NCBI RefSeq assembly: GCF_000373365.1
Contig: NZ_KB891285.1
Span: forward strand, 1-64,000
Length of the DNA: 64,000 nt
Direction of reading: 5' to 3'
Origin: Parafrankia discariae
GTDB lineage: Bacteria; Actinomycetota; Actinomycetes; Frankiales; Frankiaceae
Below, piece after piece: positions 1 through 2,414 of this stretch. The position numbers were made by a program, and so were the translations under genes. Positions within the stretch are counted from its first letter, which is position 1. The number at the start of each line of letters is the position of its first letter. The notes below the pieces were generated by a model that did no database searches, was not told the origin of the DNA, and saw only the letters and a program-made list of their open reading frames with translations.

Positions 1-493
<493 letters not shown>

Positions 494-2085: not shown

Positions 2086-2094
2086 GCGAAACTC

Positions 2095-2210
2095 CTCATC
2101 TTCCCCGGGAGCCGGCTGCGTCCCGGGACGGAATTAGCACCTGCCGCGCATGGATGCGTCGGTGGTTGCCGGGGCTTCGCTGGGCCGTTCCCTCTGCCCC
2201 TCTGGATGAG
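2095..2210 (-). promoter_or_regulatory. SAM-I (S-box) riboswitch upstream of thrC
   Basis: On the minus strand all conserved blocks appear in order: CUCAUCCAGAG, GGCAGAGGGA, CGGCCC, GCGAAGCCCCGGCAACC (kink-turn and core), AGGUGCUAAUUCC, and closing GAAGAUGAG. P1 pairs CUCAUC (2210-2205) with GAUGAG (2100-2095). The 3' strand of P1 runs straight into GAGGAG (2097-2092), the thrC ribosome site, so SAM-bound P1 would hide part of it. This suggests translational repression; I see no separate terminator hairpin with a U-run. From 2211 to 2414 I see nothing further. Confidence 0.95.
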
Positions 2211-2414
2211 CCAGATGAAGTTGTCTGTCCGTACTGTAGACCGCGTGCGGACAGGCGTGCACCGGAGTTCCAGTGGTTTGCCGTGTGCCACAGGTGCTTC
2301 GATGACACGTCCTGAGGTGGGTCGCGGCCGGGCAGCGGGGCCGTGTGCCCCCGCCACCTGGGCCGCTGGCCGCCGGCCGCGATCTCGCCGGACCGACACC
2401 AGGGAGCCCGAAGC

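Follow-up and report, generated by a model that had tools for sequence, protein, structure and literature searches.

The window analysed here is the whole 64,000-nucleotide stretch of Parafrankia discariae DNA (contig NZ_KB891285.1, positions 1 to 64,000), and the locus of interest lies near its beginning, on the minus strand. A SAM-I (S-box) riboswitch aptamer (2093-2212) precedes a gene of the annotated type thrC (808-2085) that encodes a 425 aa PLP fold-type II protein with a zinc-ribbon N-terminus, a predicted O-phosphohomoserine-dependent homocysteine synthase; we refer to this gene as metM. Downstream, and identified from its sequence, is the 5' part of the chaperonin gene groL (1-290, -), which is preceded by a CIRCE-like element (468-494, -; core 472-490) with the inverted repeat CACTC-N9-GAGTG. 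A second repeat of this form is found before groL at 438-456 (-). The groL gene with its CIRCE-like element still neighbours metM in most of the 13 Frankiaceae sampled, and in 46 of 95 genomes the stretch of 1.5 kb that follows metM encodes GroEL. Elsewhere in the window, a c-di-AMP (ydaO/yuaA) riboswitch (50056-50275, -; 62.9 bits) is followed by an open frame (50122-49370) for a secreted protein that resembles resuscitation-promoting factors and has a peptidoglycan-binding domain (domains assigned by eye), a kind of pairing that is expected in actinobacteria.

The aptamer was matched over its full length by the Rfam SAM family (cmscan, Rfam 15; RF00162, model positions 1-108 of 108, window 2212-2093 on the minus strand) with 76.2 bits and an E-value of 4e-16, against a gathering score of 44.4 bits, and it is the sole SAM-family match in the whole 7.89 Mb genome. 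The sequence-only reading of this DNA had placed a SAM-I riboswitch at 2092-2210 (-), which was correct to within 2 nt, and had suggested the same search for the leaders of thrC-type genes across actinobacteria. It had also taken the regulated gene to be threonine synthase, with the hedge that this "thrC" might have another role, and it is the hedge that has held.

A canonical hom-thrC-thrB operon is present at another locus of the same genome, and the gene in the window is thus a paralogue. The ThrC of that operon, encoded between homoserine dehydrogenase and homoserine kinase, scores 310 bits with TIGR00260 and is 39% identical to the window protein. The two proteins share the fold, the PLP lysine motif SFKDR and, as predicted for the window protein, O-phosphohomoserine as substrate, but the window protein has other active-site motifs, an additional Cys-rich (zinc-ribbon-like) N-terminus and a separate gene without linkage to hom or thrB. 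Its best named relatives are from Parafrankia (98% identity to P. soli). In a sample of 138 Actinomycetes genomes, which are related to one another, 95 were found to carry a MetM at 499 bits or more and 43 were not; the MetM clade (58-100% identity) is separated by a clean gap from all other homologues, which reach at most 233 bits, and the tree splits it from ThrC with full support (100). Membership was judged by belonging to this SAM-I- and MetO-linked clade apart from canonical ThrC, the S. albulus MetM being compared by its description. Each of the motifs NxNxRP(F/Y)Y, EGSKT and ETAGG, which align as active-site segments, occurs in at least 94 of the 95 MetM proteins, and the MetM-specific motifs are present in all 13 Frankiaceae. 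The corresponding ThrC motifs EGQKT and GNAGN were found in all three ThrC proteins compared and in none of the 95 MetM proteins, the window protein included; most of these have EGSKT and P(I/V/L)ASGS instead. A second ThrC-like protein is encoded in every one of the 95 genomes.

MetM was described as a homocysteine synthase of Streptomyces albulus, a homologue of ThrC that works with the sulfur-carrier protein encoded by metO and whose gene has a SAM riboswitch upstream (Hasebe et al. 2024, doi 10.1128/aem.01247-24, as cited in PMC12172450). As far as that account goes, the window gene resembles metM of S. albulus in encoding a ThrC-homologous enzyme behind a SAM riboswitch, and the role in methionine synthesis from O-phosphohomoserine is the one we predict for it. 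The class sample points the same way. An RF00162 match lies upstream of all 95 MetM genes, on the same strand and within 257 nt, and conversely 95 of the 102 RF00162 matches in the sample lie upstream of MetM genes. A MetO-type carrier of the ThiS family directly adjoins metM, downstream, in 73 of the 95 genomes. The homoserine acyltransferases MetX and MetA are both absent from 49 of the 95 carriers and from only 2 of the 43 non-carriers (Fisher p 2.7e-8, which ignores relatedness and is indicative only). The MetO-type neighbour and the frequent lack of MetX/MetA are what one would expect of a homocysteine-forming enzyme that has no need of acyl-homoserine. On the grounds of clade, motifs, MetO-type linkage in relatives and distribution, the window gene almost certainly encodes a MetM-type homocysteine synthase. 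Outside the Actinomycetes the linkage to SAM-I is not universal: in a sample of the phylum, SAM-I adjoins MetM in at least 66 of 110 genomes, 25 have no adjacent match and 19 have matches that could not be placed.

A protein of the cystathionine gamma-synthase type is also encoded in the genome, as are MetX and MetY. MetM as its sole homocysteine route was therefore rejected, and MetM may be one of two such routes; it is the only one under a SAM riboswitch. There are two neighbouring genes of the MetY type, one of them directly adjoining metX, and neither has a SAM riboswitch.

While a SAM riboswitch on metM and direct attenuation are both known already, the unusual feature here is a Frankiaceae metM without an adjacent metO. 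In contrast to S. albulus, as that system is described in PMC12172450, metO is absent beside metM in the window and in every sampled Frankiaceae genome (13 of 13, read over 590-1500 nt downstream of the gene), and MetX and MetY are encoded in the window genome as well. A metO remnant was considered, and neither a remnant nor a ThiS/MetO-like open reading frame was detected between metM and groL at E 1e-2. Absence of metO recurs in other lineages, and on the tree, whose root is uncertain, metO adjacency has to change five times; since the root falls on very long branches, an ancestral metO-less state of the Frankiaceae is neither favoured nor disfavoured.

Which protein could then supply the sulfur? 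Three ThiS-family proteins score above the cut-off in the window genome, namely CysO, one MoaD-like protein and one ThiS-like protein that adjoins a thiE-like gene. CysO, encoded in mec-cysO-cysM, is the sole carrier of the CysO/MetO type. In mycobacteria the CysM-CysO-Mec system makes cysteine with a synthase of PLP fold-type II that receives its sulfur from a carrier in thiocarboxylated form. MetM has the fold type of CysM and is predicted to be supplied in the same way, but its substrate and product differ. Each of the metO genomes checked has both a CysO (58-72% identity to that of the window genome) and a MetO (47-57%). As the window genome has CysO alone, our prediction is that CysO serves both synthases. 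We put forward as a tentative proposal that in the Frankiaceae, and perhaps in other metO-less actinobacterial lineages, CysO feeds both CysM for cysteine and MetM for homocysteine, and that SAM, by way of the riboswitch of metM, controls how much goes to methionine. In nodules of Frankia alni, CysO exists as a real protein that is expressed (PMC8951365).

In most Frankiaceae, including the window genome, the CysO sequence continues past the GG tail, and a repeat of the tail VT(I/V)LPAVAGG is present in the CysO of two Frankiaceae genomes and of one genome of another family. Such a repeated or extended tail would have to be processed, and the Mec (JAB) protease encoded alongside is a possible candidate for this. 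The extension was also considered as a signature of metO loss and was discarded, there being no correlation: Pseudofrankia-type and other metO-less genomes lack it.

The loss of metO could also be taken to mean that the Frankiaceae enzyme has since drifted to free sulfide or another substrate, leaving the riboswitch as a relic or in a new role. The absence of metO from all 13 genomes would be in keeping with this, as would the presence of MetX in 11 of them. However, all 13 retain the aptamer core, the geometry of P1 and ribosome binding site and the MetM motifs, which argues for continued selection, and the riboswitch is also kept in other lineages without an adjacent metO. We therefore regard such drift as unlikely.

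With regard to the leader itself, the SAM-I fold is kept across 38 metM leaders sampled class-wide. Both-side changes were observed in P2 and P4, at 7 of 24 pairs in all, and the four-helix junction is thereby supported by covariation. All six pairs of P1 are invariant or nearly so and are uninformative on pairing, for or against; their invariance fits a strand that doubles as ribosome site. The 5' strand of P1 is CUCAUC (2205-2210, -) and the 3' strand GAUGAG (2095-2100, -), both assigned from the RF00162 alignment, the sequence and the 38 leaders; CUCAUC is unchanged in 38 of 38. The ribosome binding site GAGGAG (2092-2097, -) shares three bases with the 3' strand, so that its first GAG lies within P1, as the sequence-only reading had claimed; the same layout is seen in the 13 Frankiaceae leaders. 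Only 7 nt separate the end of the aptamer from the metM ATG (2085-2083, -), which leaves no room for a terminator hairpin, and no terminator-like hairpin was found. This bears out the compact translational arrangement that had been proposed. Binding of SAM by the aptamer is predicted.

Four Pseudofrankia-type genomes have a metM aptamer with an insertion of ~120-215 nt in the P3 arm, which in one of them (L196) contains repeated GGTGCTTCTGACC-like units. The core and the P1/ribosome-site arrangement are intact in these leaders. For three of these four genomes the Rfam match listed is confined to the 5' part of the aptamer, and the true 3' strand of P1 lies just before the start codon.

Since P1 overlaps the ribosome site, the spacer is short and a terminator is lacking, the metM leader is most simply read as a case of direct translation attenuation. 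This mode has already been described for actinobacterial SAM-I riboswitches, in which, as here, the 3' side of P1 holds the start of the ribosome site (Barrick and Breaker 2007, PMC2258182). Nothing essential differs between those leaders and this one, where only half of the ribosome site is inside P1. It appears improbable that control is exerted through termination of transcription, or through a mutually exclusive sequestor, instead of direct occlusion by P1. The minimum free energy fold does contain a small hairpin between part of the ribosome site and an ACUC just after the start codon, but there is no terminator-like site, and a short gap, 6-18 nt from aptamer end to likely start codon in most lineages (counted after setting aside AUGs internal to P1 in some rows), has been kept. 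Single-sequence folding did not cleanly return the P1 state (z -0.46) and was dropped as uninformative proof of a switch.

Two further pairings were noted in the segment at 2198-2220 (-). Ahead of P1 and close to it lies CUUCAUCU, a possible partner for the 3' strand of P1 and the ribosome site in place of CUCAUC, while a hairpin formed by CUGGCUCAUCCAG would have the 5' strand of P1 in its loop; both are possible SAM-free states. The stretch ACAACU(GAA/UCA) ahead of P1 recurs in many lineages.

No sigma-70 consensus promoter was found. Upstream of the aptamer, the hexamer TACAGT (2233-2238, -) recurs at a fixed distance in 12 of the 13 leaders from Frankiaceae and is TAGAGT in the remaining one, within flanks that otherwise diverge, and from this conservation it is a putative -10 element. 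It would place the start of transcription upstream of P1. A start downstream of 2205, which the sequence-only reading had named as evidence against its proposal, is therefore disfavoured.

That the gene is instead a genuine second threonine synthase, repressed by SAM to spare O-phosphohomoserine or aspartate-derived carbon as first suggested, is very improbable: the protein scores above the TIGR00260 cut-off (267.8 bits), has a PALP domain, has threonine synthases as its nearest solved structures and has a cyanobacterial homologue that retains threonine synthase activity in vitro (PMC12172450), but the genome already has a canonical ThrC, the motifs EGQKT and GNAGN are missing throughout MetM, repression at high SAM would push the substrate towards methionine and so give feedback of the wrong sign, and neither the linkage to MetO nor the inverse relation to MetX would be explained. 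Threonine synthase was accordingly rejected as the regulated function, and with it falls the supposed paradox of SAM repressing thrC.

Taken as a whole, it is highly probable that metM is controlled by a SAM-I riboswitch acting as a direct translational OFF switch without a separate expression platform. The aptamer, the geometry, the orthology, the clade-wide linkage and the paralogous ThrC were all observed here, while the reaction is taken from the S. albulus literature; for P. discariae itself both the repression and the enzyme activity of MetM are predicted. When SAM is plentiful, the aptamer would bind SAM and P1 (CUCAUC/GAUGAG) would lock, burying the first bases of GAGGAG within the 30S footprint, and MetM would not be made. 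When SAM is low, P1 would open and MetM would be translated. O-phosphohomoserine made by Hom and ThrB would then be converted by MetM to homocysteine, the sulfur coming from a carrier protein in thiocarboxylated form, which in the Frankiaceae is probably CysO; Hasebe and co-workers reportedly found in 2024 that O-phosphohomoserine and thiocarboxylated MetO give homocysteine. Homocysteine would lead to methionine and on to SAM, closing the loop. Since ThrC draws on O-phosphohomoserine as well, the share of this common pool that goes to methionine would be set by the switch. With a MetM function, repression by SAM becomes ordinary end-product feedback.

Beyond removing the apparent conflict between SAM and threonine synthase, these findings flag a systematic mis-annotation: "threonine synthases" behind SAM-I riboswitches in the Actinomycetes are most likely MetM. 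As the linkage was complete among the carriers in this class, the riboswitch can serve as a diagnostic for reassigning thrC-type genes to MetM. For the Frankiaceae, the loss of metO offers a case in which the sharing of one carrier by two sulfur pathways can be tested.
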